NCBI GenBank assembly: GCA_038501625.1 | Contig: JAZAYU010000177.1 | Location: forward strand, 62,001-126,000 | Source of the DNA: Corbicula japonica | Taxonomy: Eukaryota > Mollusca > Bivalvia > Venerida > Cyrenidae | Direction: 5' to 3' | Length of the DNA: 64,000 nucleotides | Shown: positions 2,979 through 64,000 of the stretch, piece after piece | Layout of the letters: every line of letters starts with the position of its first letter | Position numbering within the stretch: the first letter of the stretch is position 1 | Notes under the pieces: generated by a model | Told to the model about the DNA's origin: nothing | Databases searched by the model: none | Seen by the model: the letters and a program-made list of their open reading frames with translations, nothing else | Made by a program: the position numbers and the translations under genes

Positions 2979-2986
2979 TATATAAA
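2979..2986 (+). promoter_or_regulatory. TATA box of MOD1
   Basis: The motif TATATAAA lies about 70 bases upstream of a splice donor. The 5' exon between them (to 3056) shares the core CTAGTGGTGGATAACT with the MOD3 first exon at 53988. The repeated arrangement of TATA box, short leader exon and donor in three paralogues supports a real promoter. The start of transcription is inferred at about 3010. Confidence 0.7.
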
Positions 2987-3009
2987 CTCGGATAACTTAC
3001 CGTAACAGC

Positions 3010-3056
3010 AGTTAAATTTACAGTTTCTAGTGGTGGATAACTGGCACCAAGACAAG
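3010..3056 (+). other. Non-coding first exon of MOD1
   Basis: This is an inferred 5' UTR exon ending GACAAG before donor GTGACT. It is alignable with the first exons of MOD2 (ends 15352) and MOD3 (ends 53988), especially over CTAGTGG. The 5' edge is estimated from the TATA box. Confidence 0.6.
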
Positions 3057-4151: not shown

Positions 4152-4233
4152 ATGAAACTCCTCGTAGCACTTTTGATTGTTCCGTCGGTTGTGCTAGCCA
4201 CACCCGAGAAGAGATTTGTTCTGGACCAGCTGA
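4152..4233 (+). CDS. MOD1 signal-peptide exon
   Basis: The exon opens at the ATG right after acceptor TTTAG. It encodes a typical signal peptide (MKLL, hydrophobic core, VVLA) followed by TPEKR and FVLDQL, and ends in phase 1 (CTG A) at donor GTAAGA. It is 82 nt, the same length as the MOD3 leader exon and nearly identical to it. The KR just after the signal peptide aligns with the GKR that ends each downstream module. Confidence 0.8.
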
Positions 4234-5013
4234 GTAAGATATTTTCTACGTATCACTCTATTTAGTAACGTATTAACTGAGCTCGAACCTTTTCTCCTTA
4301 TTTAGATTACTCGGTATCTATTACATAAGTTTTGCCAATGACAATATTTTTACAGGATTTATTCTCAGTTTAATATAATACAAATTTAATAATAATAAAT
4401 ATTACTTTCTATATGTAACATTTCGAACAAAAGACTATAATTCAGAAAATAATAACTATTTAAAAACTTATATTTAACTGGAAAGGCCTTTTTTGTAATA
4501 AAACAGCCATATTTGAGTATATTTGTCGGTCTGGATTTCATATTACCCATCAACTATGACAACCAGACCGGCAATATATTCTAGCACATCCTGTTAAGAA
4601 TAACAATAATTTTATTCTTGATTAAGTCTTAAAGATATAACATATAAACTTGAACAGTTTAAACCTTAATCAGGTTTGAAACTATTTCATAAATATGAAG
4701 TACTGATTTGTAAGTATACAGAAAGTTGCTCGGTAGAATTTTCATATTATAATATTGTCAGGACTCTGGAAAAAACTTGCTTAAAAGAAAGGTTTTACAG
4801 AGCAGAAATAGGGGTTTACTCGTATTGCACATTAAATCATTGTCCTATTCGTTTACATTTCTAATCAGAAATGGCTTATTTATGGCTATTTAACAGCAAA
4901 CTTTCTTTCTGCCCTTGTTGCTGTATATAACATTCTTTCAGTTTTTTTTAAACAAATCAAATAAAATACTGACATTTTTTATCAGTTTTATAATATTTTG
5001 TTGTCATTAAAAG

Positions 5014-5164
5014 TGAACGTAGTGGACGTGAATACACCGAAAGGAGATCTATAGACAATGCTTGACGTTTTGGGAAGTGACCCAACCGAACAAGCATGTG
5101 AGCAATATTGTCACAAGTTCTTGACTGGCCTGTTGGATCATTCTTGCCCACTTGTCTGCCATTC
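5014..5164 (+). pseudogene. MOD1 exon A1 with nonsense codon
   Basis: Phase-1 acceptor after TTAAAAG and phase-2 donor TC/GTAAGT; 151 nt, the standard A length. It encodes GSDPTEQAC, CHKFLTGLLDH and CHS, but the glutamine codon after GDL is TAG (5052-5054), where intact paralogues have CAG or CAA. Confidence 0.8.
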
Positions 5165-5594: not shown

Positions 5595-5671
5595 ATTCCA
5601 GGAGCTGGTTCACCATTTCCAACTAGCTCCAGCTCCTGCAGTTGTTAAACGATTCGTTTTGGATCAGTTGA
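5595..5671 (+). CDS. MOD1 exon B1
   Basis: 77 nt, acceptor TTCAG and donor A/GTAAGT, open throughout. It encodes FQELVHHFQ, then APAPAVVKR and FVLDQL. The residue before KR is V here, so the amidation-type GKR is lost but the dibasic pair is kept. Confidence 0.75.
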
Positions 5672-6079: not shown

Positions 6080-6230
6080 TGAACTTGGTGGATGTTAACA
6101 CACTGAAAGGAGATCTACAGACAATGCTTGACGTTTTGGGAAGTGACCCGACCGAACAAGCATGTAAGCAATATTGTCACAAGTTCTTAACTGGCCTGTT
6201 GGATCATTCTTGCCCTCTTCTCTGCCATTC
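6080..6230 (+). CDS. MOD1 exon A2, intact
   Basis: 151 nt, phase 1 to phase 2, no stop. The codon that is TAG in A1 and A3 is CAG here (GDLQTML). It encodes GSDPTEQACKQYC and ends LLCHS. It has an extra Cys in the QYCHK stretch, as in A1 and A3. Confidence 0.75.
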
Positions 6231-6654: not shown

Positions 6655-6731
6655 ATTCCAGGAGTTGGTTCACCACTTCCAACTTGCTCCAGCTCCTGCA
6701 GTTGGTAAACGATTCGTTATGGATCAGCTGA
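6655..6731 (+). pseudogene. MOD1 exon B2 with lost splice acceptor
   Basis: The body is open and encodes FQELVHHFQ, AVGKR and FVMDQL, with donor A/GTAAGT. The acceptor reads TTCAA where all sister exons have TTCAG or an equivalent AG. The next AG is inside the exon and would shift the frame. Confidence 0.7.
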
Positions 6732-6906
6732 GTAAGTAGTTATTCGTTCTGTTATACCAACAGGTCATGACTAGCTTTATGATTCTGTAACATCGAATTA
6801 GCCTTATGTCTGACCTACTTTTATACAACCTAATTAAATTAATTTCAGTTTTGCATACACATCCGTATTGTCAAATTTTAAATGTTTTGTATGTTGTCAA
6901 TGAAAG

Positions 6907-7035
6907 TGAACGTGGTTGATGTAAACACACTGAAAGGAGATCTATAGACAATGCTTGACGTTTTGGGAAGTGACCCAACCGAACAAGCATGTGAGCAATA
7001 TTGTCACAAGTTCTTAACCCTCTTCTCTGTCATTC
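6907..7035 (+). pseudogene. MOD1 exon A3, doubly broken
   Basis: It carries the same CAG-to-TAG change as A1. It also lacks 22 nt after CACAAGTTCTTAAC relative to A2, which shifts the frame; its length is 129 instead of 151 nt. Acceptor and donor are kept. Confidence 0.8.
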
Positions 7036-7462: not shown

Positions 7463-7539
7463 ATTCCAGGAGTTGGTTCATCACTTCCAACTTGCTCCAT
7501 CTCCTGCAGTTGGTAAACAATTCGTTTTGGATCAGCTGA
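7463..7539 (+). pseudogene. MOD1 exon B3, cleavage site altered
   Basis: 77 nt with good acceptor (TGCAG) and donor. The GKR codon triplet reads GKQ (CGA to CAA), removing the dibasic site. The reading frame itself is open. Confidence 0.7.
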
Positions 7540-8008: not shown

Positions 8009-8147
8009 CAACCTTAGTGAACGTGGACACACTAAAAGCAGATCTACAGGCAATGGTTGACGTATTGGGAAGTGACCCGACCGAACAAGCCTGACACAAG
8101 TTCCTCTCTGGCCTTTTGGAGCATGCTGTACCTTTGATTTGTCATTC
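8009..8147 (+). pseudogene. MOD1 exon A4 with deletion-made stop
   Basis: A 12-nt deletion across the Cys-Glu-Gln-Tyr codons joins GCC to TGA, giving an in-frame stop just after DPTEQA. The donor is weaker (GTTAGT). The sequence is closer to the MOD3 modules (LVNVDTLKADLQ) than to A1-A3. Confidence 0.75.
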
Positions 8148-8471: not shown

Positions 8472-8545
8472 ATTCCAGGAACTGCTTCACCACTTCCACA
8501 TTGTTCCACCAACTACAGTTGCACCTGCTAAACGACTTCTTCTCG
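8472..8545 (+). CDS. MOD1 exon B4, last internal module (LLL linker)
   Basis: Acceptor TTTTCAG; encodes FQELLHHFHIVPPTT, then APAKR and LLL, ending G/GTTAGT. The shared end KRLLL-G/GTTAGT occurs in all three genes (20788, 62881). It reads as a phase-1 donor joining to the terminal A exon (G+AT gives Asp), not as a stop codon. Confidence 0.7.
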
Positions 8546-8975: not shown

Positions 8976-9126
8976 ATACTTTTGACTCCACAACTTTAAA
9001 AGCCGAATTACAAACACTTCTTGATGTCTTGGGAAGTGATCCCACAGAACAAGCTTGTGAACAGAAAGGGAGACATCTGATAACTGATCCACTGCTTGTC
9101 CACGCTGTTCCACTTATCTGCCACTC
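8976..9126 (+). CDS. MOD1 terminal-module exon A5
   Basis: 151 nt, open, phase 1 to phase 2. It encodes TFDSTTLKAELQ, GSDPTEQACEQKG and HAVPLICHS. It is much closer to the MOD2 terminal A exon (22260-22410) than to the other MOD1 modules. Confidence 0.8.
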
Positions 9127-9731: not shown

Positions 9732-9789
9732 GTTCCAGTCACTGATTGCACATTTCCACCTGACAGCTCCCACCACCACTGGACCATAG
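9732..9789 (+). CDS. MOD1 terminal exon B5 with stop
   Basis: Acceptor TTTTTTCAG; encodes FQSLIAHFHLTAP and TTTGP, then TAG. There is no dibasic site, so the last peptide would end at the natural C terminus. It is homologous to 23142-23196. No canonical AATAAA was seen close by. Confidence 0.75.
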
Positions 9790-12534: not shown

Positions 12535-13210
12535 GAGCATTCTTTACAGATGGTTCTTATGATAATTTTACTTCATGGACCTGCAAAGACCTTATTCAGG
12601 CGCTCACATTTTTATTGGATAATATTTATTTGAGATTTGGTACCTCTATATAAACAAGTAATAGGCAGTCCAATAGGTACTAATTGTGCACCCCTTGTTG
12701 CTGATCTGTTTTTATACTGTTATGAAAGAGACTTTATGTTATCTCTTTCTACCGAACATCAAGATGATATTATTACAGCTTTTAATAACACCTCGAGGTA
12801 CCTTGATGATTTATTAAATATAGATAATAACCATTTTCCATCACTGTTAATAAGATTTATCCTAAAGAACTACAGCTTAATAAAGCGAACACTTCAGAAA
12901 AGCAAGCAAACTTTCTTGATCTAAATCTGTCCATTGAAAATGGTTACGTAACTACAACAATATATGATAAAGAGATGATTTTTATTTTAATATAGTAAAG
13001 TTTCCGTTTTTAGATGGCGATGTTTCTCGTGCAACATCTTACGGGGTTTATATCTCACAGCTTGTTCGCTTTTCAAGAGCTTGCAACGATGTGAATGATT
13101 TCAAAGAACGTAATCTGTGCATTACAGAAAAAACTTAAAAAACAAGGTTATCGGTATCACAAATTAAGGAAAACCTTTTGCAAGTTTTATCGCCGATACC
13201 CAGATTTAAT
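12535..13210 (+). pseudogene. Reverse-transcriptase relic (copy 2)
   Basis: It is homologous to 860-1520, with IGTNCAPLVADLF and an intact-looking RYLDDLL catalytic motif, followed by frameshifts. It continues past DGDV, VYISQLVRF and the YRRYPDL-like tail. It is a truncated, inactive copy. Confidence 0.7.
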
Positions 13211-15276: not shown

Positions 15277-15284
15277 TATATATA
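15277..15284 (+). promoter_or_regulatory. TATA box of MOD2
   Basis: TATATATA lies about 68 bases upstream of donor AAG/GTGACT at 15352, the same geometry as in MOD1 and MOD3. Confidence 0.65.
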
Positions 15285-15304
15285 CTGTTGAACATAACTG
15301 AGAA

Positions 15305-15352
15305 GCAATCACAGTGAAAATCGTAATACTAGTGGTTGCACATACAAACAAG
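15305..15352 (+). other. Non-coding first exon of MOD2
   Basis: It ends ACAAACAAG before GTGACTTA. It shares ACTAGTGGTTG with the CTAGTGGTGG core of the other two first exons but is otherwise diverged. The 5' edge is estimated. Confidence 0.55.
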
Positions 15353-18300
15353 GTGACTTATTTATAGTACATGTATATTAATTATATATCGTATTTATTA
15401 AGATATAGGATTGATTTGTATTTCATTAATAAAAATCAATAATGTTAGAAAAAAGATATACACAAAAACTTAAACATATAAAATTACGCATGCTCAATTA
15501 AATTGATAAATATGAAAAAAGGAAATTTAAAAGCCGCAGAACACGGCAAATATAAAACTATTGCAGCCATTGTTTGAATGACACAGTCCATGAACATTCA
15601 TGGAAATTCATATTGCTGCCCATATCAAACACAGTTACAATTTTGATCCGAACCAAAGGATGGTAATATTGGAATCTCCAATCGTTTATTTAATCGTGTT
15701 GATTCATTTCAAAGGATGTTTTATTTTTTACGTATATAAAATTTGAAATTACAGACGATGCTCTACAGTATAGCAACGTTGATTTTTCCCTCCGTCGTTA
15801 TGGCTGCTCCAGAAAAGAGATACCTGTTTGAATTACCTTCAAGTAGTTAATTTAAAATTATTATGAATAAGTTAGAACTAATTTGTTCGAAACCAATAAA
15901 ACGTATGTCTTTAATGAAACTTGATATTAACATTTGACCGTTTTTCATGTTTATACAGATTAAAAAAGATTCATTCCTAATTTTAGGAGTTTAGCATTGT
16001 ATAAATGACAGAACAAACGATATTTGATGCGTTCACATCTTCACTTTATTGATTATCTCTTTTAAAACAATATAAATGTATTACAACGATAGATATTAGC
16101 ATAAACCTTGGATAACTGTTTATTGCACGGTGAACAAAAAGTTGGCACACAGTCATTCACAAGGCATACAAAGAAACTTTTGGTTTCAGCACATTTTCCT
16201 GCATTCATAGACACAGTCAACACAGTCAACACATTCAACACAGACCTAAATTGTAAGCTGGTTTTCGATGAGTTACAAGCGATAGGGGTTGAGCTAACTG
16301 TAGAATCTTGTGAGCAATATGTACACAAGTTCTTGACAGGCCTGTTTGGTCATTTACCATGCAAACAGTAAGTATTTTAATAGAACATTATTTAAATATT
16401 AATTATATTAATACGTTTTGTCTCGAGATTTTTTTTTCATTAAAAAGAGTATAGATCGGTCTTGAATACGAATGCACGTGCGCCCCTTTTGTTGTCGCAT
16501 GCCATTTGTTTCGAATTTCGAGTAAAATGCATATAATTAGGCCGTCCCCTCACTTGTTAAGCTGTCACTTTAGTAACATTAATTTTTAAAAGAACAACTG
16601 TGTAAAGTTTCGAAAGTTGTAGATATTCGGATAATTAAAAAAAATGAAGAAAATATCGAATCTACAGACTTGAAGTTTTACGCTAGTTACGACATGCAAG
16701 TAAAATAGTGACGTCATACGTGCGATTTGAAGGTTCGCAAAAGAAGTTCAAAATAAAATGTACAAGTAAAGAAGACAGGTTTCTGTTAAGCACTTCCAAA
16801 CATTTACACCGTCTGCACCTAATCTCCACTGCGGAGAGTTTTTTTTAAAGCTTTAGCTTAAATAGTGGATAACGGAATATAGGCAATCACACAGTCTTTA
16901 TCATTGGAAAGACTCTCGTTAGGCTTAGTACGTGACCTCAGGTGTCCAAATCTGTTCAGATATTATCCTTACTGCTTATCATTTGGAATGAATCTCAACT
17001 TGTATTGTGAACATGTGCAAAGATTTAGCTTGAAGTCTTCGTTTCATAACGAGTAGATGAACTGGCTCGAAAGTTTACAATATTTTCAGGCGTCCTTTCT
17101 TTGATTTCAAATTTTCTATCAGAGTATCTCCGTTATTTATCATAATTCTGTTTATAATTCATACAGTCATATTAATTTTGATACATTATTCAATTTAACA
17201 GATTTATGATTGGCACTTTACTATTATTAACTTCATCAGCCTATCACACATTATTTGAACAAAATACACATCATCAAAACACAAAGAGTTTAAAGAAGCT
17301 CATACTTGCCATCTTTCATTTGAAGATTTTTTCTATAACGTGCCACCTGTATGGTCCACATAGAATTAATTTGACTTATCTGGCCATTTCATCATTAAAA
17401 TTTGAAATATTCATTTAACATTAAGATATGTTAAGAAAACAAAATCTGTGCCCCGTCAAAAACAGTTAGCATTACAAACATATTATGTGTGACAAAATCT
17501 TAGACGTGTTTATCAGGTTGTAATTTTCTAAATATATCATTCACTATGGGTTTAAACTGATTTCAAGGGTGCACCAACCACATAAGTATGCTCTCAAATA
17601 ATAAGATCAATAAAATACACGTTGATAGGTAAAGAAAATGTAACCCTACATGTGTAAGATGCAGAGGAATAAACATACAAAAGTTATAAATGATTTGTTT
17701 AACAATGTGACAGGTTCGCAATGAGGCCTCTCAGAACATAGCATTAGAAAGCACAGACATACATAAAAATAATATGCCACTCTAGAATAATACAAACAGT
17801 GTTCGAAATGAAGCATACACACTCTTTTCTTATAAGATCGATACAATATAAAGTGACCAGGCAGCAACTCAATCTTGAATGCTTGTGTGCATCGAGAAAA
17901 CACACCCTTTTTAAAATAACCTAAAATAATGTCTCCAAAATACAGACAGTTTTTATAGGGAAAACGTCATATTTGTGTGAATAGTGTCCATAAGTTTATT
18001 TATAAAAAAATAGGAAAATTGTGTTTGGAAAAAGGAAATCAAACATGAAAAGTTAATCATTTTTTGACTTTGGTATTGCTTCTTTCAAAGTCATTAAGCA
18101 AAGTACTATGGAGGAAAGCTTTAAGCCTTTGACGTATTTGAATGTCTAATTATATAAAAAACAAAACATCTCTTTTGTTTGAATGCAGAGAGAATCCTTC
18201 ATTTTCATATTACTGTTGCGAATGTCAAGGCTCCTTGTACAGCATGATGAAGTTTGTTGTTAAGAATAATTATCTCATAAATATATAATTAATTAATCTA

Positions 18301-21300
18301 TCTAACAGTTATAATACAATATCATTTGACCTCTGAATATAAATACTGTTTGAGTTTAATTGATATGTGAAGAAATTGAGATAACTTTAGGTCACAGTTT
18401 CAAACATTCATTACTGCCCGTGAACAAGCGCAGTGAAACTGCTAACAAACATAGTCAGTGAAGCTGCCCATTAACAAAAAAAGCTCAATAAAACTGTCCG
18501 AGAAAAAATCAATGAAACTGCACAAAAACAAGCTCAGTGAAACTGTCCATAAACAAAAAAGCGGAATAAAACTGTCCGAGAAAGAAACTCAATGAAACTG
18601 CACATAAACAAACTCAGTGAAACTGTCCATAAGCAAAAAAAGCTCAATAAAACTGTCCGAGAAAAAGCTCAATGAAACTGCCAACAAACAAGCTCAGTGA
18701 AACTGCTCATTAACAAAAAAGCTCAATAAAATTGCCCGAGAAATAAGCTGAATGAAACTGCACATAAACAAGCTCAGTGAAGTTGTCCATAAACAAACAA
18801 GCTAAAAAAACTTCCGAGAAAAAAGCTCAATGAAACTGCACATAAACAAGCCCAGTGAAACTGTTCATAAACAAAAAAGCTCAATAAAACTGTCCGAGAA
18901 AAAGCTCAATGAAACTGCACATAAACAAGCTCAGTGAAACTGCTCATAAACAAAAGAGCTCAATAAAAGTTCCAGAGAAAAAAACTAAATGAAACTGCAC
19001 ATAAACAAGCTCCGTGAAACTGCCCATAAGCAAAAAAAAAGCTCAGTAAAACTGCCCGAGAAAAAATTCAATGAAACTGCACATAAACAAGCTCAGTGAA
19101 ACTTTTCATCAACAAAAAAGGTCAATATAACTGCCCGAGAAAAAGCTTAATGAAACTGCACATCAACAAGCTCAGTGAAACTGCCCATAAACAAAAAAAG
19201 CTCAATAAAACTGTCCGAGATAAAACGCAATGAAACTGCACATGAACAAGCTCAGTGAAGCAGCCCATAAACAAAAAAGCTCAATAAAACTGTCCGAGAA
19301 AAAACTGAATGAAACTGCACATAAACAAGCTCATTGAAGCTGCCCATAAACAAAAGAGCTCAATAAATCTGTCCGAGAAAAAACTCAATGAAACTGCACA
19401 TAAACAAGGTTAACTGCCCATAACCATGCTCAATGAAAACAAGCCTGCAATATTTCAAGTTTTTGTTGTTCAGGGCTTGCAAAGTTCTCCTTTTGCCCGC
19501 CGGAATGGTATTCTCTTTTTGTCCGCCGGAATGGTATAAAAATGGTCATAGCACAACTCTATTTGCACGTTCGATATACACATACGAACTGACAGTGGGC
19601 TAATATTTTTTTATTATTATTGTGTTTAAGGCATAAAGAAATCCATTAAAAATTATGCTATGTAAAAAGTTTGGCGTGAAAATAAATCAACAATTTGTTC
19701 AACCGGAAAATTGTGATCACAGAAAAAACCAATTGAATATATTGTTGAACATCTTTGTTTAATGGCCTGATCTACCAAACATGTACAAGTATAAGAGATA
19801 AAAGTAGGTGAACGACAGTTTTCAATGGCTTAAGCCGAAAGAAGACAAAGCCTCATTTATATTATGGTTTTATGAAATGGTATGCGACGGGTCGGGTAAT
19901 ATGACACCCAGATCTGCAATATATCCTTACATACCATGTAAAAAACTAAAAGCACATATATTAATATAATTTAATAACAATTTGAACAATAATATAGAAA
20001 AATAAAAGATTTAAAAAAACACAAGCGCAAGTTATAATTAAATAGTTCGCACCCAGGGTCTAAAAGTCTTAATTTTTAGATATTTTTTATCCATTTATAA
20101 AGACTACTGTGACAGTTAACCTTCATTTTCGTATGAAAGTGCCAATTTCAAATTTCATCCAAATCCAACAATGTGTCTAAATTTTTTTCGCAAGGAACTT
20201 GCAACAGTTATTTAACGTCGTGCACTCTTGTTGTTAAGACGTCAAAAAAGTGAAATATGTGAAAGAGTGAAGTATCAGGAATCGCAACACCTAGAAAACT
20301 CAGCCTCCCTACGCAGTAGAATGGAAAAAAGTGACAGCAAGGGTTTATAAAATGTTTCATTTCAAATAGGCACTACAGTCAATTAACGAAAAAGAGAACG
20401 TAAGGGAGTACCTTGGAACGGTCAGAGGCAAAACACTTTGCCACTGGGAATTTAAACCAGGTTCTAGGGTAAAGAAAGAAAATGAATAAATATCCGCATT
20501 AAAAAGCCTATTAGTGTTTTCTTATGGAAAAACATTTGAAAAAAAAGTATTACTTTAAAAGGTAGTTTTGGATGTCTACACAATACTATGCAGACTTTGA
20601 AGTGCAAATCTACAAAAGTATGATTTATACACATAAGCTGAGTTTGCATGGTATATGAAAAACATGGGCAATGGAAAATATGTCATTCCTGACAATTTGT
20701 CATATTTTCAGATGCTTTGAGCATGTTGGGCAGCTGATTCACCACTTCCACATTGTTCCAGTTACAATTGGTAAACGATTGCTTCTCGGTTAGTATGCAT
20801 ATATTATTATATGTTAATAAATAAGGGCTGTTTTTTGTCCGAGGGCAGTCGTATTGGCGATGGCCAATACAACTGACCCGAGGACAAATAACATGGCCAA
20901 TATCGAATCACTTATTTATTGGCCATTTTATTTATAAGGCTAATAACGTATAATTATTTGATAATGTTTTTAATATCGAGTTTACAATTTAACAAATAAT
21001 ACGTACATATACTTGAACACTCTTTGATGACATAAATTTGTTTGTAAGTTTGAGAAGCGTAATGAAACCGTCTTTCGCGCGATGGTGTTTGTTCTATTTT
21101 AATGCAGATGTTACTCGTATATGTATTTAATTTAATACTTTGTAGTTTTACTTTTGCTTAGACAAAAATGATATTATCGTTTTTTTAGGGCCAGTACATA
21201 TATTCCTTGAACTTCAATCAAAATTACGTAAACTTCCATTTGAAAGATTCAAGTATTCATACAAATACTCATTACTTGAACACATGTTCTTAATGAGAAA

Positions 21301-22211
21301 TGCATATTTTTACAGTAAGTTAACGGTATCTGTACACAAATCTGAGGTTATTGGAAAATGCAATGATGAATTTCAGCAGTATAATAGTACTATGTACACA
21401 TTTTTAATTACGCGAACTATAGATGTAAGATGTTTTCGAGCTCGAATGGACGCAAGTACTTATCCCAAATTTGTGCCGTTCAAGGGCCGTGTCGTAGCAG
21501 AAAAACACTACAACCCAATTAAAGCTATCTCTTTCAGTTTTTATAATGAAAGCGAAAATAAGTGAAAGAGAAAGGCAGCTTTACAATAGTTGAAAGGGGA
21601 ACTTTTCAAGACACCAAACACGACAAATATTTCAGGCTCTGTTTGATTGAACCTGGTTCAAAGCTTTAATGCATATTATTGCCCACGCCGCCTAGCCCCG
21701 GGTTGAGCTAAACTCAATATTTACACCAGTAAACAGTTCAATTTCGATCCATCCCAAACGATGGTGTGCATAATTACAAAAAAAAACAAAGCAGAACAGT
21801 TTCAAGCTAAACCCCTAACAATATATGTACCTATCGACTGAAGTTTGAAATAGGATTGTTAGTTACTGGTTGTTTTTGCCCTAGTCCGCTAATACATGTA
21901 CGTATACAACTATACGTTACAACAAAACAACCAAGACCTTGATGTGACAACTATTTGTGTTATGTTACACTGAAAAAAAAAACACAATAGAATTACGTGA
22001 TAAGGATCTGTTAAACTCCAGACAATGGCAAATTTGTCATATGTAACAGTTTCATTTACCAAGTAAAAAATGGGACAGACAGTAAACAATTACACAACTC
22101 CGTTGTATCATTGATCGATGAAGGAGAATTGAAATAAATTCACTTATTTCACAGATCTGTTCATGTTGAAAAAAAGCAAAATATTCATATTAAATTATTA
22201 TTACTCGTATA

Positions 22212-25302: not shown

Positions 25303-25802
25303 NNNNNNNNNNNNNNNNNNNNNNNNNNNNNNNNNNNNNNNNNNNNNNNNNNNNNNNNNNNNNNNNNNNNNNNNNNNNNNNNNNNNNNNNNNNNNNNNNN
25401 NNNNNNNNNNNNNNNNNNNNNNNNNNNNNNNNNNNNNNNNNNNNNNNNNNNNNNNNNNNNNNNNNNNNNNNNNNNNNNNNNNNNNNNNNNNNNNNNNNNN
25501 NNNNNNNNNNNNNNNNNNNNNNNNNNNNNNNNNNNNNNNNNNNNNNNNNNNNNNNNNNNNNNNNNNNNNNNNNNNNNNNNNNNNNNNNNNNNNNNNNNNN
25601 NNNNNNNNNNNNNNNNNNNNNNNNNNNNNNNNNNNNNNNNNNNNNNNNNNNNNNNNNNNNNNNNNNNNNNNNNNNNNNNNNNNNNNNNNNNNNNNNNNNN
25701 NNNNNNNNNNNNNNNNNNNNNNNNNNNNNNNNNNNNNNNNNNNNNNNNNNNNNNNNNNNNNNNNNNNNNNNNNNNNNNNNNNNNNNNNNNNNNNNNNNNN
25801 NN
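25303..25802. other. Assembly gap (500 N)
   Basis: Exactly 500 N. The round length suggests a placeholder, so true distances across it are unknown. Confidence 0.99.
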
Positions 25803-30310: not shown

Positions 30311-30316
30311 TCTTAC

Positions 30317-30464
30317 CTATAGTTTCTGTTATAGTGTAGACAGAACCACGCCAATAGCCACCACACATTTCATTCTTGTTTCCGGCGCAAGCTTGGTTAC
30401 ACTCACTCTCCGGTCGCTTTTCATAGTTCTTTAATGCTTGTCCACAGAAACATTGATAAAAATT
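30317..30464 (-). CDS. WSC domain 2, second-half exon
   Basis: 148 nt, acceptor TTACAG, phase 0 to 1, donor G/GTAAGA. It encodes FYQCFCGQ, ESECNQACAGNKNEMCGG and YWRGSVYTI. It is almost identical to 33661-33808, and the flanking upstream intron is also similar. Confidence 0.85.
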
Positions 30465-52445: not shown

Positions 52446-52527
52446 GTAAAATTCCTCATGGCACCTTTGTTCCGTCGGTTGTGTTTGCTTCTCCCCAGAA
52501 GAGACCTGTTGTGGACCAGCTGAGTAG
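52446..52527 (+). pseudogene. Relic leader exon of a fourth MOD copy
   Basis: TTTAGGTAAAATTCCTC, TTCCGTCGGTTGTGTTTGCT and GTGGACCAGCTGAGTA align with the MOD3 leader exon (55440-55521). The ATG is lost, a deletion in the hydrophobic core shifts the frame, and the donor is altered (GTAGAA). No module exons follow before 53900. Confidence 0.8.
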
Positions 52528-53912: not shown

Positions 53913-53920
53913 TATATATA
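53913..53920 (+). promoter_or_regulatory. TATA box of MOD3
   Basis: TATATATA lies about 68 bases upstream of donor CCAAG/GTAACC. Downstream leader sequence matches MOD1. Confidence 0.7.
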
Positions 53921-53941
53921 CTCTTAAAACCTACTGAAACA

Positions 53942-53988
53942 GCAGTTTTATTAAGTTGTCTAGTGGTGGATAACTCTAACGCGCCAAG
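53942..53988 (+). other. Non-coding first exon of MOD3
   Basis: It contains GTCTAGTGGTGGATAACT, shared with MOD1, and ends CGCCAAG. Intron 1 also keeps homology to MOD1 intron 1 (about 54430-54500 against 3620-3690). The 5' edge is estimated. Confidence 0.6.
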
Positions 53989-56941
53989 GTAACCTCAAAT
54001 GTTCTTTTTCAAAAAGATGGATTATAAATATTTTGATTTAAAACGTTAAAAATAATTCGTAGATAAAATAATGCATCTTAACGACTTCTGAGAAAGTAAA
54101 GTGTAAGACCACAACAAGGATCTTTTGAAAACTTTCATTACATGCAAGTCAAGATTCATGTAAATTCGCTCTTTGTGTTACAAAATATTTAAATATCAAC
54201 ATAATAATACTATTTTGACTGACGAAGACTTCATTGCACTATGAGTTCGATCATGTTAAAATGCAGTATTTTCCGCCAACAACAGTTAGCCCCGGATCAG
54301 TCCATGACGTGAGGAAAGTTTTTCCTGAAAATAATGGGTTTGGTCTTCACTAGACGATACTTTAAGTGGTGTACTTTAAAAACAGAGTTCTTAGAAAGAG
54401 TTTTAGAGTTTTCTTAAAAATGAAAAGATGTTGTCATTTCTATACGGTGAGGTGATTGAACAAAGACCACAATAACTACAAAGCTAGGAACAAACACCAT
54501 TATGATTGTAAAAAAATTCCAAATTGAACTATCATTATATTTGCTAATGAACAATAAAAAAATAGCATATGCCAATAAAGCAAAATGAACATTTCAACTG
54601 GAGACGACGTTTGTTTCATATACTCAATTTATACTCAAGATATCCGTATATTTTCATTGACAAATAAATTTTCCTCGCTCATCATGTCGCCGCAGATTTT
54701 GTTGATTCCTGTTTTAAAGTAGCCTATTAATGGGCACATTCAGATACTAGATATGTTAACCCAACAAGATATTTATCAAGCGTGCAAACTTAATGCAAAC
54801 ATTCAAGATCTGATCAAATTTGTGAACTCTACCAATTTATTCTAAAATGATATGGCTTATCTTATGAAAGGAAAGTGTAGATCCCCGTTTTTGCATCGTT
54901 GTTCCGTGAAGAAGTAAGCACATTTGATTAGAAAAAAAATCATTTTTCCAACATATAAACATTTAACACCAGTGCGTACAAACAGAAAGAAATCGTTAGC
55001 AAACATTTATAACACGACGACCTAGTAAATAAAATGGCAAATTCAAAAAGTTTATAATAATAAATTTCTAATAGAATCACAAACATTTATTTCGCAAAGT
55101 ATAAAAAATTAACAAAGTAAAATATGCATTATCAAGAATAGCCACCTCCAGAAGACACGGGCTAGCTTAACAGTAGAGAAAAAAATCTGATGAAAAGGGA
55201 ACTTTGAAAGCCACCGAACACGACAAATATGAAAACATTTGATTAAGCCGTTCATGGGCAGTAATTAAAATGCATATTACTGCCCACGCTGCATAGCCTC
55301 TAGACGGAAAGGTAAACCGGTTTAAAGAAGGATCAATTTCAAATAAACACCACCAGAAATAAACGGAAAATTGATACCCATGGACTTGGTACATTTATTC
55401 TCTAATGACATATAACAACTCTTTTCATTTTAACTTTAGATGAAATTCCTGATAGCACTTTTGATTGTTCCGTCGGTCGTGTTTGCTGCTCCCCAGAAGA
55501 AATTCGTTTTGGACCAGCTGAGTAAGATATCGTTAGCTACAAATCATATTAACTGAAGTTTTCAGGAATGTTACAGATTACTTATCAAAATTTATATTTA
55601 TATTTAAAAATGATGTACACTCTTATCAATTGAAGATTGATCACTGTTCATTTGAGTTCATCAAGGTAGTGGAGACTATTTTTTGATGTTTAAGCATAAA
55701 TCGTTTGTGCTTCGCCCTGTTTAAAAATCTTACAATGTTTAAGGCAAACCTCAAAGTAGGTACAGAAGTTGTGCAGCTGAATTTAGGACACAGTTGTTTT
55801 AAGACGTTTCTATAGAAAATATTACATCGCGTTTTCACCATCGTTTCATCGTGCCTTCGTGTTTTCTCCATCGTGTCATCGGGTTTTCACCATCGTGCTT
55901 TCGCGTTTCCATTTACCGTGCCATCATATCGTCGTGATTTCACCATCGTACTATCGTGCATCGCGTAAAAGGGAGAGAAAAAAATAAGTTTGTCCATACG
56001 GAGCACCGAAGGTTTACTTATAAATAGATATAGACAATTGTTATATGTTTTGTATGTTGTCATTAAAAGCAAATTTTAAAACTATTTTAATTTAAGAATT
56101 GCTATTTCAAATAAATATAGAACAACTTTAATAATCACAATTTAAGAAAGATTTCGTTTATATATATATAATATAATATTTGATCAATATTTACAACTTT
56201 TATATGTTCTGTATGTTGTCATTAAAAGCAAGCTTAGTGAATGTGACCACACTAAAAGCAGATCTACAAGCATTGGTTGACGTTTTGGGAAGTGACCCGA
56301 CCGAACAAGCTTGTGAGCAATATGGACACAAATTCCTCACTGGCCTATTGGACCATGCTGTACCACTGATTTGTCATTCGTGAGTCACATTCTTACTTGA
56401 TCATTTAAAAAGGACGCATAATATCTTACAGCAAACTTTATATAAATGGGGTTAGTTCAGAACTTGCCCCTATCGTCATTTCGCTGTTATTGAGACAAAA
56501 TATAGCAAAATCTCTATAATGATAAAAGGAAGTTCAAAACAACTCATTCTTAATTATGTATCTTTATTTTATATATGTTTAGAAATGTAAGAACATGGCA
56601 AAATAGATAGATTAAAAAAGACCTTAAAATTCTATACTATCAACAGTATAGGAGGTCCTTTTAAAGGAACTTTTAATACTTTATTATAAAGCCAAAAATA
56701 AACATTTTTATTATTGTGTCATCTATTTACACGAAATGAAAGCTCGAACTTACTTTTACAAATATAATATGTTGTATAGATTTGCTAGACAAATGTTTAT
56801 CACACTTAGCACGATGCAATAGTCAATTATAAACATATCAAACTGCTTTAATTAATATTATGATTGAAACTTAAATAATAACAATATACATTTGTAATAA
56901 TAATAATAATATTACAACAACAACTACTTATACTACTACTA

Positions 56942-56973: not shown

Positions 56974-58424
56974 ACTGCTGCTACTACTTCTACTACTACT
57001 ACTACTGCTCCTGCTGCTACTACTACTTCTACACCTACTACTTCTACTACTACTTCTACTACTAATAATAATCATGATATTAATACAAGAAGAAAAAGTT
57101 TACGCCATGATATTTTAATTTCGTGCGCGCGAGTTGTCATTTAACTGACGCGCATACAATTTTCATGCAAAACCGGTCGAAACTTTAATTTCTTATAACA
57201 ATTTTGCTTTTTCTCAACCATTTGAATGCATTAGCACGCATCTTAAGTTACACATACCAATTTTTCGTTAACTTGGAGAGAAAGTATACAATGTACTGTT
57301 TATAAAAAAAATTAATTTATTCAGATTGCAGGAGCTGCTCCACCACTTTCATATTGTTCCAGCTACTACAGTTGGTAAACGATTCGTTTTGGACCAGCTG
57401 AGTGAGTAGTAATTAATAGAACTTCATTACAGCGAGAAAATAGAGATTCTACGCCAATTACGTTAAAAGTGATCTTAAACTTACTAGTGAAACATGTTGT
57501 GTACCTATGTATTTACGTTTATTATTTTTTTGAAAAAAAAATACAATTTATTGACAGGTTATTTTAAATTTTAGAACTTTTTTAATTTTAGAATTGATAT
57601 TTCAGATAAATTTAGAACAAGTTTAATGACCACAATTTAAGTAGGATTTGTTCATATACTATAATAATATTTGATCAATATTTACAACTTTTATATGTTC
57701 TGTATGTTGCCATTAAAAGCAAGCTTAGTGAATGTGACCACACTAAAAGCAGATCTACAAGCATTGGTTGACGTTTTGGGAAGTGACCCGACCGAACAAG
57801 CTTGTGAGCAATATGGACACAAATTCCTCACTGGCCTATTGGACCATGCTGTACCACTGATTTGTCATTCGTGAGTCACATTCTTACTTGATCATTTAAA
57901 AAGGACGCATAATATCTTACAGCAAACTTTATATAAATGGGGTTAGTTCAGAACTTGCCCCTATCGTCATTTCGCTGTTATTGAGACAAAATATAGCAAA
58001 ATCTCTATAATGATAAAAGGAAGTTCAAAACAACTCATTCTTAATTATGTATCTTTATTTTATATATGTTTAGAAATGTAAGAACATGGCAAAATAGATT
58101 GATTAAAAAAGACCTTAAAATTCTATACTATCAACAGTATAGGAGGTCCTTTTAAAGGAACTTTTAATACTTTATTATAAAGCCAAAAATAAACATTTTT
58201 ATTATTGTGTCATCTATTAACACGAAATGAAAGCTCGAACTTCCTTTAACAAATATAATATGTTGTATAGATTTGCTAGATAAATGTTTATCACACTTAG
58301 CACGATGCAATAGTCAATTATAAACATATCAAACTGCTTTAATTAATATTATGATTGAAACTTAAATAATAACAATATACATTTGTAATAATAATAATAA
58401 TATTACAACAACAACTACTTATAT

Positions 58425-58455: not shown

Positions 58456-61048
58456 ACTACTACTACTACTACTACTACTACTGCTGCTGCTGCTACTACT
58501 ACTTCTACACCTACTACTTATACTACTACTTCTACTACTAATAATAATCATGATATTAATACAAGAAGAAAAAGTTTACACCATGATATTTTAATTTCGT
58601 GCGCGCGAGTTGTCATTTAACTGACGCGCATACAATTTTCATGCAAAACCGGTCGAAACTTTAATTTCTTATAACAATTTTGCTTTTTCTCAACCATTTG
58701 AATGCATTAGCACGCATCTTAAGTTACACATACCAAGTTTTTGTTAACTTGGAGAGGAAGTATACAATGTACTGTCTATAAAAAAATTTAATTTATTCAG
58801 ATTGCAGGAGCTGCTCCACCACTTTCATATTGTTCCAGCTACTACAGTTGGTAAACGATTCGTTTTGGACCAGCTGAGTGAGTAGTTATTAATAGAACTT
58901 CATTACAGCGAGAAAATAGAGATTCTACTCCAATTACGTTAAAAGTGATCTTAAACTTACTAGTGAAACATGTTGTGTACCTATGTATTTACGTTTATTA
59001 TTTTTTTGAAAAAAAAGGACAATTTATTGACAGGTTATTTTAAATTTTAGAACTTTTTTAATTTTAGAATTGATATTTCAGATAAATTTAGAACAAGTTT
59101 AATGACCACAATTTAAGTAGGATTTGTTCATATACTATAATAATATTTGATCAATATTTACAACTTTTATATGTTCTGTATGTTGTCATTAAAAGCAAGC
59201 TTAGTGAATGTGACCACACTAAAAGCAGATCTACAAGCATTGGTTGACGTTTTGGGAAGTGACCCGACCGAACAAGCTTGTGAGCAATATGGACACAAGT
59301 TCCTCACTGGCCTATTGGACCATGCTGTACCACTGATTTGTCATTCGTGAGTCACATTTTTACTTGATCATTTAAAAAGGACGCATAATATCTTACAGCA
59401 AACTTTATATAAATGGGGTACGTTCAGAACAAGCCCCTGTCTTCATTTCACTGTAATCGATAAAATATATCAAAATCTCTCTAACGGCAAAATGCAGTTC
59501 AATAAAATTTTGCACAAAATCATCTTGTTTTTTATCTTTATTTTATTTAGTTAGGAAATGTTAGAACAGGGAAAATAGATAGATTAAAACGACCTTAAAA
59601 ATCTACACTGACAACAATATAGGAGGTCCTTTTAAATAACTTTCACTAATTTATAATGAAAACAGAAATAAACGTTATGAGGTCTCTATATGCAAACCCG
59701 GTCGAAACTTTAATTTTCTTATAATAATTTAGCTTTCTCTCAACCATTTAAATGTCATTTAGATTGCAGGAGCTGCTCCACCACTTTCATATTGTTCCAG
59801 CTACTACAGTTGGTAAACGATTCGTTTTGGACCAGCTGAGTGAGTAGTAATAAATAGAACTTCATTACAGCGAGAAAAAAGAGATTCTACTCCAATTACG
59901 TTAAAAGTGATCTTAAACTTACTAGTGAAACATGTTGTGTACTTATGTATTTACGTTTAATTTTTTGGAAAAAAAGACAATTTATTGACAGGTTGTTTTA
60001 AATTTTAGAACTTTTTTAATTTTAGAATTGATATTTCAGATAAATGTGGAACAACTTAAATGACCACAATTTAAGTAGGATTTCGTTCATAATATAATAT
60101 AATATTTGATCAATATTTACAACTTTTATATATTCTGTATGTTGTCATTTAAAGCAAGCTTAGTGAATGTGACCACACTAAAAGCAGATCTACAAGCATT
60201 GGTTGATGTTTTGGGAAGTGACCCGACTGAACAAGCTTGTGAGCAATATGGACACAAATTCCTCACTGGCCTATTGGACCATGCTGTACCACTGATTTGT
60301 CATTCGTGAGTCACATTCCTTCTCTATCATTAACAAATGACACATATTATCTTTCTAATCCATCGTATAGGATAGAGTGTATTAAGACGTCTCTTTAGAA
60401 AATAGAAGTCAAAACGAGCGCAACTGCTTCTAAGTCGCCCTACATGTCTAGCCATGCGCATGCGCAGTTAAAAATAGAAAGATCTATTTAATTCATTGTA
60501 AAATAAAACATAGAAAGAAGTTTTATAGCAATAAATCGCTGAGGAATCCGAATTTTACAGCTTCTTATTAGTTACAAATGTAGGGCGACTTTGAAATCTA
60601 AAGGGGATCCGTTCCGAACTTGCTTCTGTCGTCATTTGACTGTTATCGATAAATACATATCAACACGTCTCTATAGTCTCTAATGTTACGATGCAGTTCA
60701 ATATAAGTTTGCACCAATTAATGATGCTAATATATCGTTATTTTATAAAGGTTAAGGAATGTTAGAACTATAAAAATAGATAAATAAAATAGTCCCTAAA
60801 ATTCTAAACTGACAACAAAAAAGAAGGTATTTTTAAAGAACTTTCAATAATGTATTAAGACAGAAATAAACATTTTTATTATTGTGTCATATTTTACGCG
60901 AAATACAAGGTCAAATGCACTTTAACAAATATTGTGTTTTGTACTCATTTGTTAGAAAATCTTCATCAAATTAAGCACGATTACAGTCATTTATTATCAT
61001 AGCATACTTCTTAAATTAAAACAATGATTGAAGCTTAAATAATAATAA

Positions 61049-61079
<31 letters not shown>

Positions 61080-64000
61080 AATAAAACGCATGATAACATT
61101 TTAATTGAATGCGCGCGAGTTGTCAGTTTACTGAGGGGCATATCATTTATGAGTCTCAATATGCATACCCGGTCGAAACTTTAATGTCCTTATAACAATT
61201 TAACTTTTTCTCAACCATTTAAATGTATTGTCATGCATGTTAAGTTTTACGAGTACATACCAATTTTACTGTTAATGGGAGGGGTAGTAAACAATGTATT
61301 GTCTATAAAATGATTCATTTTATACAGATTGCAGGAGCTGCTCCACCACTTTCATATTGTCCCAGCTACTACAGTTGGTAAAAGATTCGTTGTGGACCAG
61401 CTGAGTGAGTTGTAATTTATAGAGCATTTCGTTCAGATATAGCGTTAACCGGGAGTATGCAATAGGTTTTGTAAACTATGATTATAAACATTTAAATAAA
61501 TACGTTTTATGTTCTGGAAAGAAATAAGCAACATTAAAAGTTGATAGTTTTACCCATTTTAGTTATTAAACTTAAAAATCGTGTTCACCCATTTCAGTCA
61601 CTAAACCTAAAAACCGGTGACAATATCGTAAACTTCTCATTTCTCTCACGTTAATTAAGTTGTCTGTTGTATCTTTAAAGCGGCTATGATGAATGTGACA
61701 ACACTGAAACAGCATTTGCAACAGATGGTTGATTTTTTGGGAAGTGATCCAGCCGAACAAGCTTGTGAGCAATACGGACACAAAATCTTATCCGGCCTAG
61801 CGGATAGTGCTGTGCCTCTGATCTGTCATTCGTAAGTTTGATTAAATGTTTTGTTAGACTGAATTTAAGAAAGTTTATCAAAGTATAATTACAAATAAAT
61901 ATGCCACATTTGTCCTTCAAGACAGAGGTTATGTCGTTCGTGATTGCAAAACTTTTTCTATATTGCATCCAAATTAGAGCCGTCATTGAAACTGCTAGAC
62001 AATTTGAAAGGAACTTCAAACTTGAAAGTCATGTTGGGCGTTAAGGTTCGACAGGAATATTTATTCCGTCTGCATGTCTGCACAAATAGTTTCTTTTACA
62101 TATTATAGAAATTTACGGGGAAATTCTACTAAAAACAGCTCCCTTCCTGTACTTTAATCTTATTTATCAACTGAATTCACATTGGCCTTGTAATTGGGTC
62201 AAGGGGCTTGTCATATTGGCCTGAGGCAAACGGCCGAGGGCTAATGTGACTGCCTAAGGCCCAATAACATGGCCAATGTGAATTTACTTTTCTGATTAAT
62301 GACAATTTTATTAAATAAGGGAATCAAAACATCGAATTCATAAGATCGCTAAACTGGGCCAATACAAGAGTCGCTGGGCAAATAACGCCAATATGAGATA
62401 GTTAATTTGTAATTAATGATATAATTATGTAACATATTTATCAGCTTTAAACATTATATTTGTAAAAAAAAAATTTCATTTATGCACAGTAAATTGTTTA
62501 GATTTAAGATTCTTGGTTATATTACATACACTTACGGTTCAGCCAAAATTTTTCTTTACTCTATTCCAAAAGAAAAGGTGCACCTTGTTTTCGGCGATTT
62601 TCAGTAACAGCTTTTCTAAGTGCCTAATTATTTGGTATCAAAATTGAGATCTGATCATAGTTATATTTACTTTGGAATTAAAATGATCTTATCTCAATTT
62701 TAAAACCAAATATTTAGGCATTAGGAAAATAATTTAATGAAAAATCAGCGAAAGCATATTGGACACTTTCTTTTGGAAAAGAGTATAAATATAATACAAC
62801 TTGTGATTTTATTCAGGTTTCAGGAGCTCATCCACCACTTCAATATCCACCAAGCCACAGCTGGTAAACGATTGCTTCTTGGTTAGTATCCATAAAACTT
62901 TCCGAAATTCATATGTAAATTAAACGAAAATTATGAATTTTTCTGGTGAAAACATCTAGCTGAACTTTGTAACAGTTTGTGAGGACAAAGGCACAAGTCT
63001 TTGATCAGAAAACTAAAACAGGGACCGGAGACTGGTCGCCATTTCAGCCAATCAGATACTTGAGATTTGCGACTGGTCTCTATTCTCAGTTTTATGATCT
63101 TGGGCCAAGAACTTGTTACGTATTTGTCATAAAACTATGTGATACCATACATAATTGTGTGCCAACCTAGGAAAATATATTTAGAACCTATCTATTGTAT
63201 GGTTGTTAACTTACACGACAGCTTATTAAGTTCAGATGATATACATATGTAACTGCAACTAATACTGGGAATTTTTAACAACCTTCCACTGCTTAAGTAA
63301 GTCAGCATTGAATACTGGGATTTTACTTTCATATAATTTCGGTTAACTTTGAAGTGCGTCGTTTCCTCAACCTTCATATACTTTTATAAAAAAATAATGT
63401 ACCTAAATAGGAATTTGTCATGTTCATAAAAACAATATTTACGTTAAGTTATATTTAGCGGGACTATTAACAACCTATTTTATCCGAGATGAATTTCAGC
63501 AGTATAATACTATGTACACAATTTTAATTACGCGAACTATAGCTGTACGCTCGAACGGACGCAAGTACTTATTCCAAATTTGTGTCGTTCAAGGCCCGTG
63601 TCGTAGCAGAAAACACTACAAACAAATTAAAGAGATCTGTTTCACTCTTTTTATAATGAATGCGAAAATAAATGAAAGAGAAAGGCAGCTCTACAATAGC
63701 TCAAAAGGGAACTTTTCACGACACCGAACACGACAGATATTTCAAGCTCGGTTTGATTGAACCTGGTTCTAAGCTATAATGCATACTATTGCCCAAGCCG
63801 ACTATCCCCTGGTTAACGTAAACCTGATATTACACCGGTTAACAGTACAATTTCGATCCATATAAAACGATGGTGAGCATAATTAAAAAAGTATAAAAAA
63901 ACATCACAACATTTTTCAAGCTAAAGCCATAACAATATATGTACCTATCGACTGATAAAAGTTTGAAATAAGTTTCGATTATTAGTTACTTATTGCACTG
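53942..64000 (+). CDS. MOD3: intact multi-module secreted precursor, runs off the window
   Basis: Coding exons: signal 55440-55521; A1 56229-56379, B1 57325-57401; A2 57720-57870, B2 58801-58877; A3 59196-59346, B3 59763-59839; A4 60155-60305, B4 61328-61404; A5 61681-61831, B5 62817-62881 (LLL linker). Lengths are 82 + 4x228 + 216 = 1210 nt, leaving phase 1, which requires the terminal A'-B' pair not present before 64000. No stops or broken splice sites were seen. The leader MKFLIALLIVPS, VVFAAPQKK is followed by five modules with an NVT glycosylation sequon (modules 1-5), GSDP(T/A)EQACEQYGHK, AVPLICHS, LLHHFHIVPATTVGKR and FVLDQL. Two cysteines per module could form one disulfide. It is probably secreted and cleaved at KK/KR into near-identical peptides; about 471 residues in full. 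The protein family is not recognised. Confidence 0.8.
55190..55300. repeat. Fragment of dispersed family 2 in MOD3 intron 1
   Basis: GAAAAGGGAACTTTGAAAGCC, ACACGACAAATATG, ACTGCCCACGCTGC. It is followed by a short family 1-like piece to about 55395. Confidence 0.55.
55440..55521 (+). CDS. MOD3 signal-peptide exon
   Basis: 82 nt, ATG directly after acceptor CTTTAG. It encodes MKFLIALLIVPSVVFA, APQKK and FVLDQL, ending CTG A/GTAAGA. KK replaces the KR of the other leaders. Confidence 0.85.
56040..56080 (+). pseudogene. Truncated copy of an exon A acceptor
   Basis: TTATATGTTTTGTATGTTGTC and ATTAAAAGCAA repeat the acceptor region of A1-A4 but stop within three bases of the exon start. It is a remnant of another module copy. 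Confidence 0.65.
56229..56379 (+). CDS. MOD3 exon A1
   Basis: 151 nt, acceptor TTAAAAG, donor TC/GTGAGT. It encodes SLVNVTTLKADLQALV, GSDPTEQACEQYGHK and AVPLICHS. It is the same at protein level as A2-A4. Confidence 0.85.
56896..57072. repeat. Compound (TAC)n/(TGC)n microsatellite
   Basis: Trinucleotide run with interruptions in the A1-B1 intron. A diverged duplicate lies at 58385-58550. Confidence 0.9.
57325..57401 (+). CDS. MOD3 exon B1
   Basis: 77 nt, acceptor TATTCAG, donor A/GTGAGT. It encodes LQELLHHFHIVP, ATTVGKR and FVLDQL. Confidence 0.85.
57720..57870 (+). CDS. MOD3 exon A2
   Basis: 151 nt, essentially identical to A1. The surrounding 1.49-kb unit is a recent tandem duplicate. 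Confidence 0.85.
58385..58550. repeat. Compound (TAC)n/(TGC)n microsatellite, second copy
   Basis: Duplicate of 56896-57072 with changed unit counts, in the A2-B2 intron. Confidence 0.9.
58801..58877 (+). CDS. MOD3 exon B2
   Basis: 77 nt, same sequence as B1, ending VGKR, FVLDQL. Confidence 0.85.
59196..59346 (+). CDS. MOD3 exon A3
   Basis: 151 nt, same protein as A1 and A2. The downstream intron is shorter and lacks the trinucleotide tract. Confidence 0.85.
59763..59839 (+). CDS. MOD3 exon B3
   Basis: 77 nt, acceptor TTTAG, same protein as B1 and B2. Confidence 0.85.
60155..60305 (+). CDS. MOD3 exon A4
   Basis: 151 nt, acceptor TTTAAAG, same module protein with only silent changes seen. 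Confidence 0.85.
60432..60592. mobile_element. MITE with AAGTCGCCCTACAT inverted ends
   Basis: AAGTCGCCCTACAT at the left and ATGTAGGGCGACTT at the right, in the A4-B4 intron; no coding content. Confidence 0.7.
61050..61081. repeat. (AAG)n microsatellite
   Basis: About ten AAG units in the A4-B4 intron. Confidence 0.95.
61328..61404 (+). CDS. MOD3 exon B4
   Basis: 77 nt, acceptor TATACAG, donor A/GTGAGT. It encodes LQELLHHFHIVP, ATTVGKR and FVVDQL. Confidence 0.85.
61681..61831 (+). CDS. MOD3 exon A5, divergent
   Basis: 151 nt, acceptor TTTAAAG, donor TC/GTAAGT. It encodes AMMNVTTLKQHLQQMV, GSDPAEQACEQYGHK and AVPLICHS. It is more diverged than A1-A4, as expected for the last internal module. 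Confidence 0.85.
62173..62286. repeat. Foldback repeat in MOD3 intron
   Basis: AATTCACATTGGCC on the left pairs with GGCCAATGTGAATT on the right, and TGGGTCAAGGGGC pairs loosely with GCCTAAGGCCCA. It is related to 20817-20920. Confidence 0.75.
62817..62881 (+). CDS. MOD3 exon B5 (LLL linker)
   Basis: 65 nt (12 shorter than other B exons, frame kept). It encodes FQELIHHFNIH, ATAGKR and LLL, then G/GTTAGT as in MOD1 B4 and the MOD2 B exon. Confidence 0.8.
63488..63990. repeat. Intronic repeat shared with MOD2 (includes family 2)
   Basis: Same block as 21360-21880: GATGAATTTCAGCAGTATAAT, ATTTTAATTACGCGAACTATAG, GAAAGAGAAAGGCAGC, ATATATGTACCTATCGACTG. In MOD2 the terminal A' exon lies about 0.38 kb beyond this block. 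Confidence 0.8.

Follow-up and report, generated by a model that had tools for sequence, protein, structure and literature searches.

An unnamed family of secreted, tandem-module precursor genes is supported by our analysis of a 64,000-nucleotide stretch of the Corbicula japonica genome (the window; bases 62001-126000 of contig JAZAYU010000177.1, here C177, in an assembly of 1.07 Gb). The window carries three tandem paralogues on the plus strand, termed MOD1, MOD2 and MOD3. An earlier note on this DNA had described them as one family; that observation largely holds and is partly confirmed, with MOD1 found to be decayed, contrary to the earlier description, and with a helical-hairpin module predicted to be freed at Lys-Arg sites as an addition to it. 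It is quite possible, and tentatively our preferred reading, that these genes encode a secreted signal: a convertase-processed polyprotein that would release copies of a disulfide-stapled helical-hairpin mini-protein.

Exon plan of the three paralogues

The three genes follow a common plan in which a TATA and leader region and a signal exon (phase 1) are followed by alternating exons A and B. Exon A is mostly 151 nt long (phase 1-2) and exon B mostly 77 nt (phase 2-1), with every exon in the models built shorter than 180 nt; in the window models, exon A is bordered by phase 1 (last base A) and by phase 2 (after CHS). Local alignment of the TATA/leader regions among the three genes gave scores of 26, 70 and 35, which were reached by 0 of 487-491 random window segments; the TATA and leader positions were read by eye and mark putative promoters. 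Both MOD2 and MOD3 retain the A/B alternation, the fixed phases and GT-AG at every intron. The shared promoter and leader and the two-exon module with fixed phases, as claimed earlier, are thus borne out for MOD2 and MOD3 by exon borders and leader alignment, while the phases of MOD1 do not agree with that claim. Rebuilding the exons, with the end of MOD3 taken from the host genome, reproduced the proposed layout signal-(A-B)n-(A-B LLL)-(A'-B' stop) with n = 3, 0 and 4.

With the first acceptor of its exon A1, MOD2 encodes 181 amino acids plus a stop, and all of its introns are GT-AG. Three in-phase A1 acceptors are available, giving an exon of 178, 157 or 151 nt and a frame of 182, 175 or 173 codons; the 175-codon open frame reported earlier is correct, stop included, given the second acceptor (A1 = 157 nt). 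The complete MOD3 encodes 471 amino acids in 13 exons, again with GT-AG at all introns. Its last two exons lie 0.7-1.3 kb past the window, and the forecast that MOD3 would run open past the window end and close with A'-B'-stop proved right, both exons being present in the host contig. The introns before A' of MOD2 (~21365-21955) and MOD3 (63488-64065) contain matching stretches that are 81% alike, and these introns are therefore homologous too. The long MOD2 intron also holds, at ~18400-19440, a minisatellite-like array whose units resemble aaactgcacataaacaagctcagtg by eye.

In MOD1 the damage totals three in-frame stops, two deletions and one lost acceptor. The fixed phases attributed to this gene are not kept: stops interrupt A1, A3 and A4, A3 and A4 are shortened, and B2 is without its AG. 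When exon skipping is allowed, an open frame results in 4 of the 31 exon orders tried. The decay appears to be recent, as suggested by the low ratio of nonsynonymous to synonymous substitution rates (dN/dS) that MOD1 also shows.

Relatives, host-genome copies and constraint

Database searches yielded 37 related proteins, the weakest with an expectation value (E) of 1.4e-8; the search scores only ~8000 candidates and depends on words of 5 residues in common, which leaves room for occurrence beyond molluscs. Of the 25 relatives with a named organism, all are from molluscs and all are called uncharacterized or hypothetical. They comprise bivalves (Mercenaria, Mactra, Mya, Dreissena, Mytilus, Saccostrea, Crassostrea/Magallana) and gastropods (Littorina, Pomacea, Babylonia), with from one module per protein (Pomacea, Babylonia, one Mactra) to seven (Littorina, C. 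virginica LOC111114602). The window genes display the family hallmark, namely a signal (judged by eye), Lys-Arg sites and modules with a GSDPTEQxCE ... CHSFQ-like core, and relative P0001 shares 68% identity over 96% of a shortened MOD3 query. The same plan of signal, Lys-Arg and repeated module recurs in Mercenaria mercenaria LOC123532848, LOC123532217, LOC123532221 and LOC123531550, and the uncharacterized oyster proteins LOC128164254, LOC111114602 and LOC134280155/6 follow the same family plan. Module numbers in these Mercenaria and oyster relatives differ from those of the window genes, and no name or tested function was found on record for them. A literature search by motif, concept and some members' locus numbers likewise returned no name for the family at listing level. 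These results, together with the recurrence of the exon A borders described below, uphold the earlier designation as an unnamed family of tandem-module secreted precursor genes. Searches of the window with the 37 proteins alone found family matches at E <= 0.01 in 22 places on the plus strand and in none on the minus strand.

Several relatives also speak to splicing. P0007, P0008, P0011 and P0012 hold multi-module, intron-free frames on contigs of 1,048-1,192 bases, which makes transcription and splicing of the relatives very likely; of the source tags, lgn presumably denotes assemblies of reads from sequence archives and merc those of marine eukaryote transcripts. Five oyster-like genomic fragments (P0021-P0024 and P0035, picked by eye as one module core inside unrelated sequence) cease to match relatives at CHS, where window exon A also ends; a phase-1 border is compatible with their first residues, with G read for A and the base-level step worked back from protein. 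In two oyster genes, one predicted isoform has exactly one module more than another (77 and 69 residues), which is consistent with a phase-matched A-B exon pair that permits skipping. P0014 (Mercenaria) and P0032 (Mytilus) have a second signal-like stretch mid-protein, as if two adjacent single-module genes had been fused by gene prediction.

Comparison with domain databases provided no identity. Pfam searches with MOD2, shortened MOD3 and one module reached 13.1 bits at best against cut-offs of 25-27, and a PDB sequence search gave chance rows only, among them a uteroglobin construct (E 0.13) that was considered and dropped. The Pfam names attached to repeat-rich relatives at a lax cut-off and through precomputed tags (P_C10, BSMAP, Gcn1_N and others) are likely sums over repeats, and 'developmentally-regulated vdg3' was set aside as a guess without a sequence link.

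In the host genome the family forms a wider cluster on C177, in the order G0, MOD1, MOD2, MOD3 and G4, followed by partly recognised genes or remnants to ~172 kb. G0 (C177:49572-60329, 476 amino acids) and G4 (C177:131089-138585, 400 amino acids, 5 modules, 3.8 kb past MOD3) are both fully open. G4 is the intact counterpart of MOD1, their pieces being 77-94% alike. The G0 block is 97% identical to the MOD3 block across 12.7 kb, and the identity extends to the left edge of the compared region. A tandem duplication is more likely here than an uncollapsed haplotype, since likeness among the genes to the right of the block drops to 77-94% and a single contig carries them all. At C177:46574, upstream of the twin gene G0, lies a counterpart of the relic signal exon listed in Table 1. 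In the gene at ~143 kb of C177 no signal exon could be recognised. Copies of exon A with an extra cysteine were also seen on contigs C100, C23 and C344, and C213 and C1320 gave weak copies; C100 has two clusters (1806001-1864000 and 2085001-2115000) on opposite strands with matching sequences, which may reflect an inverted duplication or an assembly matter.

Copy comparisons point to constraint on the protein. The repeated exon A pairs within G0, MOD3 and G4 show, in 15 of 15 cases, 0/50 amino-acid and 0-5/151 base differences, and the 300-base intron flanks of these copies are 69-99.7% alike. For paralogues, dN/dS stayed within 0-0.25 when A-exon, signal or pooled pairs were compared, and two B-exon pairs gave 0.36 and 0.49 (MOD2 B1 was left out because the ungapped comparison misaligned it); the same bases read in two wrong frames gave 0.64-5.8. 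The ratios of 0-0.25, together with the confinement of matches to the plus strand (22 vs 0), argue that the window genes are not a product of chance. One exon departs from this pattern: exon A5 of G0 (C177:55809-55959) and of MOD3 (61681-61831) differ at 15/151 bases and 9/50 residues, mostly through amino-acid changing substitutions, in the midst of introns that are 98.2% identical. A conversion tract would account for this excess, and so would diversifying selection. That the window genes are for the most part dead remnants of an old family and make no product today is very improbable. The stops, deletions and lost acceptor of MOD1 and the relic signal exon near 52.4 kb fit that account, but MOD2, MOD3, G0 and G4 are fully open, the 15 exon A pairs are without amino-acid differences despite intron divergence, and dN/dS in the A-exon, signal and pooled pairs is low. 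Even MOD1 keeps its few open paths by skipping, and one-module skips are seen between the predicted oyster isoforms.

The module and its proposed release

The module is ~76 residues long and is repeated two to six times per window gene (one gene now being broken). We compiled 115 module rows from the database proteins, MOD2 and MOD3, leaving MOD1 out and keeping isoforms and identical copies; the rows include one spurious match (MOD2 from residue 50), and the row pattern requires C1 and C4, so both are built in. A dibasic site precedes the module in 103 of these rows; seven of the 12 others are left-truncated or genomic fragments, and the remaining five count as real exceptions. Upstream of the site, the ten neighbouring residues vary (2.6-3.5 bits per column); downstream, the fourth position is Asp at 47 of 56 distinct sites, the choices there being limited by the pattern to D, E, G or N. 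The Arg found at 56 of 56 was discounted, since it is imposed by the pattern. In an independent alignment labelled A5, C1 and C4 are near-invariant, both columns reaching at least 90%. The inner cysteines C2 and C3 occur together in 92 rows, are both missing from 23 and are never found singly, MOD2 module 1 being scored as without them despite a cysteine one place off (CX2C); among 78 distinct cores, 61 have both and 17 have neither. The oyster and gastropod modules found are of the 4-Cys type, whereas the MOD3 modules and the last MOD2 module are of the 2-Cys type. Both states are found in one genome, here and in Mercenaria, and also within MOD1 (A1 and A2 vs A'). The best tree of 98 rows, with the C2/C3 columns masked, has 4 state changes, and the coupling of C2 with C3 is suggestive. 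An A'-like exon at C177:170175-170306 carries Trp for C1 and Arg for C4 and keeps C2 and C3. Pairing of C1 with C4 and of C2 with C3 would be consistent with the joint presence or absence of C2/C3 and with this joint loss of C1/C4. The 91 predicted mature modules (copies and isoforms kept) span 65-95 residues, with a median isoelectric point of 5.0 and a net charge that is negative in 91 of 91 (-1.4 to -11.7 at pH 7.4). Low-confidence structure models of the module include extra N-terminal helices beside the predicted hairpin.

In the mechanism that we favour, the signal peptide would direct secretion of the multi-module chain, and furin or a prohormone convertase would cut just before the conserved module start of three hydrophobic residues and Asp. 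The C1-C4 and C2-C3 bonds would then staple each released module into a helical hairpin, which may act extracellularly as a ligand whose dose would follow from the number of copies. The Lys-Arg sites, the identical copies and the apparent signal peptide favour release as a ligand or effector. Should the Lys-Arg sites go unused, the chain would stay a multi-domain protein, for example a lipid-binding (saposin-like), storage or matrix protein. Prosaposin is a precedent for tandem helical modules of similar size, which are cut from one secretory precursor, and saposin has six conserved cysteines per module. Most of the mollusc modules have two or four core cysteines rather than six, and the fold match is weak. 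An uncut chain would also sit poorly with dibasic sites that recur before 103 of 115 modules in otherwise variable linkers, and with the single-module proteins of Pomacea, Babylonia and Mactra, whose existence indicates that the module can stand alone. We regard this explanation as rather improbable.

Several observations weigh against the proposal of a released signal. The ligand is putative, the signal peptides were judged by eye, and the gene models in this species are predictions from genomic DNA. Five full-context modules are without a dibasic site. Neuropeptide precursors share with this family the dibasic sites between copies, the use of which is predicted here, but 65-95 residues is long for a neuropeptide. 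A Gly before the dibasic site, which is a common but not universal amidation mark of neuropeptides, is rare in this family (12 of 100 sites; seen in MOD2, MOD3 and G4). With respect to the disulfides, well-supported branches of the tree force only 1 C2/C3 change, the independent-pair test of their coupling is without power, and the gene holding the C1/C4-loss exon, recognised only in part, may itself have decayed. Confidence in the structure models is low, with a mean predicted local distance difference test score of 60.2 (P0018, left out of the fold search) and 63.9. Foldseek returned no match at E <= 0.001 for such a low-confidence model, and in the VIA fold comparison several rows tied with the top within 1 Z with no clear margin, a result that excludes nothing.

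The closest likeness by plan is to alpha-hairpinins. Excerpts of PMC7191063 and PMC11591084 describe these by the motif C1X3C2XnC3X3C4 with C1-C4 and C2-C3 bonds, and describe plant precursors of varying module number in which up to 12 helix-loop-helix modules are freed by proteolysis; the modular precursor type is also described for some spider and scorpion peptides (excerpt of PMC11591084). Plant alpha-hairpinins and vicilin-buried peptides, as described there, share the modular plan with the mollusc family, and the cysteine motif is shared in 92 of the 115 mollusc rows and not in 23; in the window it is present in MOD1 A1 and A2 and missing from MOD1 A', MOD2 and MOD3. The mollusc modules differ from alpha-hairpinins in being longer and acidic, in often having C1 and C4 only, and in being parted by Lys-Arg, and no sequence kinship was detected by the Pfam and PDB sequence searches. 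By analogy, the family may work in the way of a modular alpha-hairpinin precursor, but the greater length of its modules and the acidity of all 91 scored keep us from classing it as an alpha-hairpinin.

An immune role, in which the polyprotein would supply helical-hairpin antimicrobial or anti-predator peptides in the manner of plant modular alpha-hairpinin precursors, is in our estimate unlikely. Immune families often form tandem clusters that include decayed and twin copies, as the cluster on C177 does. The CX3C-Xn-CX3C motif of the 92 rows and the modular precursor, as in the plant alpha-hairpinins of the excerpted PMC7191063 and PMC11591084, would also agree with such a role. Positive charge, however, is given as a general trait of antimicrobial peptides (excerpt of PMC7191063), and a classical cationic antimicrobial peptide is disfavoured by the uniform acidity and the conserved copies. 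The array copies are kept identical rather than diversified, with exon A5 (against ~1.8% difference in the introns) as the exception.

Animal peptides of similar build can be likened to the module by description only. One of these, mBjAMP1 of amphioxus, is reportedly, to judge from a title, an alpha-hairpinin-like helical hairpin with antimicrobial action and DNA binding. The scorpion peptides kappa-hefutoxin/OmTx and the cone-snail peptides flf14/vil14a have the alpha-hairpinin motif and connectivity, and are described as potassium-channel blockers of 22-27 residues (excerpt of PMC7191063). Cone snails, the source of flf14/vil14a, are also molluscs. A broader conjecture, which we hold to be improbable, is that of a new mollusc-wide class of extracellular messenger, 'mollusc hairpinins': multi-copy prohormones would release identical disulfide-stapled helical hairpins whose second disulfide is removable, the dose would depend on how many modules and genes there are and on exon skipping, and the framework-14 cone-snail toxins would have arisen from this endogenous family as venom offshoots.

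Feature coordinates, neighbouring sequence and significance

Table 1 Family features of the window (window coordinates)
Feature	Position	Strand	Remark
MOD1 TATA box and leader exon	2979-3056	+	TATA 2979-2986, donor 3056; by eye; resembles MOD2 and MOD3 leaders
MOD1 signal exon	4152-4233	+	phase 1
MOD1 exon A1	5014-5164	+	4-Cys type; TAG at 5052-5054
MOD1 exon B1	5595-5671	+
MOD1 exon A2	6080-6230	+	4-Cys type; open
MOD1 exon B2	6655-6731	+	acceptor changed from AG to AA
MOD1 exon A3	6907-7035	+	TAG at 6945-6947; 22 nt short
MOD1 exon B3	7463-7539	+
MOD1 exon A4	8009-8147	+	12 nt short; TGA at 8092-8094
MOD1 exon B4	8472-8545	+	ends LLL
MOD1 exon A'	8976-9126	+	dN/dS 0.06 vs MOD2 A'
MOD1 exon B'	9732-9789	+	with stop
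MOD2 TATA-like box and leader exon	15277-15352	+	TATA-like 15277-15284, donor 15352; by eye; leader alignment
MOD2 signal exon	15755-15842	+	ATG at 15758
MOD2 exon A1	16190-16367	+	divergent; in-phase alternative starts 16211 or 16217
MOD2 exon B1	20712-20788	+	ends LLL
MOD2 exon A'	22260-22410	+
MOD2 exon B'	23142-23196	+	with stop
Relic signal exon of a further copy	52446-52526	+	start codon lost; query was MOD1 signal exon; absent from the earlier note
MOD3 TATA-like box and leader exon	53913-53988	+	TATA-like 53913-53920, donor 53988; by eye; leader alignment
MOD3 signal exon	55440-55521	+
MOD3 exon A1	56229-56379	+
MOD3 exon B1	57325-57401	+
MOD3 exon A2	57720-57870	+
MOD3 exon B2	58801-58877	+
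MOD3 exon A3	59196-59346	+
MOD3 exon B3	59763-59839	+
MOD3 exon A4	60155-60305	+
MOD3 exon B4	61328-61404	+
MOD3 exon A5	61681-61831	+
MOD3 exon B5	62817-62881	+	ends LLL
MOD3 exon A'	64688-64838	+	window scale, beyond window; host genome
MOD3 exon B'	65232-65286	+	with TAA; window scale, beyond window; host genome

Elsewhere in the window, WSC-domain reading frames above the Pfam cut-off lie at 30285-30656 and 33629-34051 on the minus strand and are likely exons of related genes. The plus-strand frames 1008-1469 and 12634-12924 have the stretch LSTEHQDDIITAFNNTSRYLD in common, which we take to resemble a retroelement reverse transcriptase fragment; neither gave a Pfam match at 0.01. A run of 500 N occupies 25303-25802, beside a frame that is open downstream to 26500, and a bacterial-code scan for transfer RNA genes found none.

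The family described here is found in both bivalves and gastropods, its proteins have as many as seven modules, and it is without a name or function in the literature searched. Searches for long open frames miss it because every exon modelled is below 180 nt. With its phases matched, the A-B exon pair lets the count of modules vary freely through duplication or exon skipping. Modules that carry both C2 and C3 or neither also provide a natural test of the contribution of a second disulfide. If the modules are indeed freed, molluscs would make a multi-copy secreted helical-hairpin ligand or effector.

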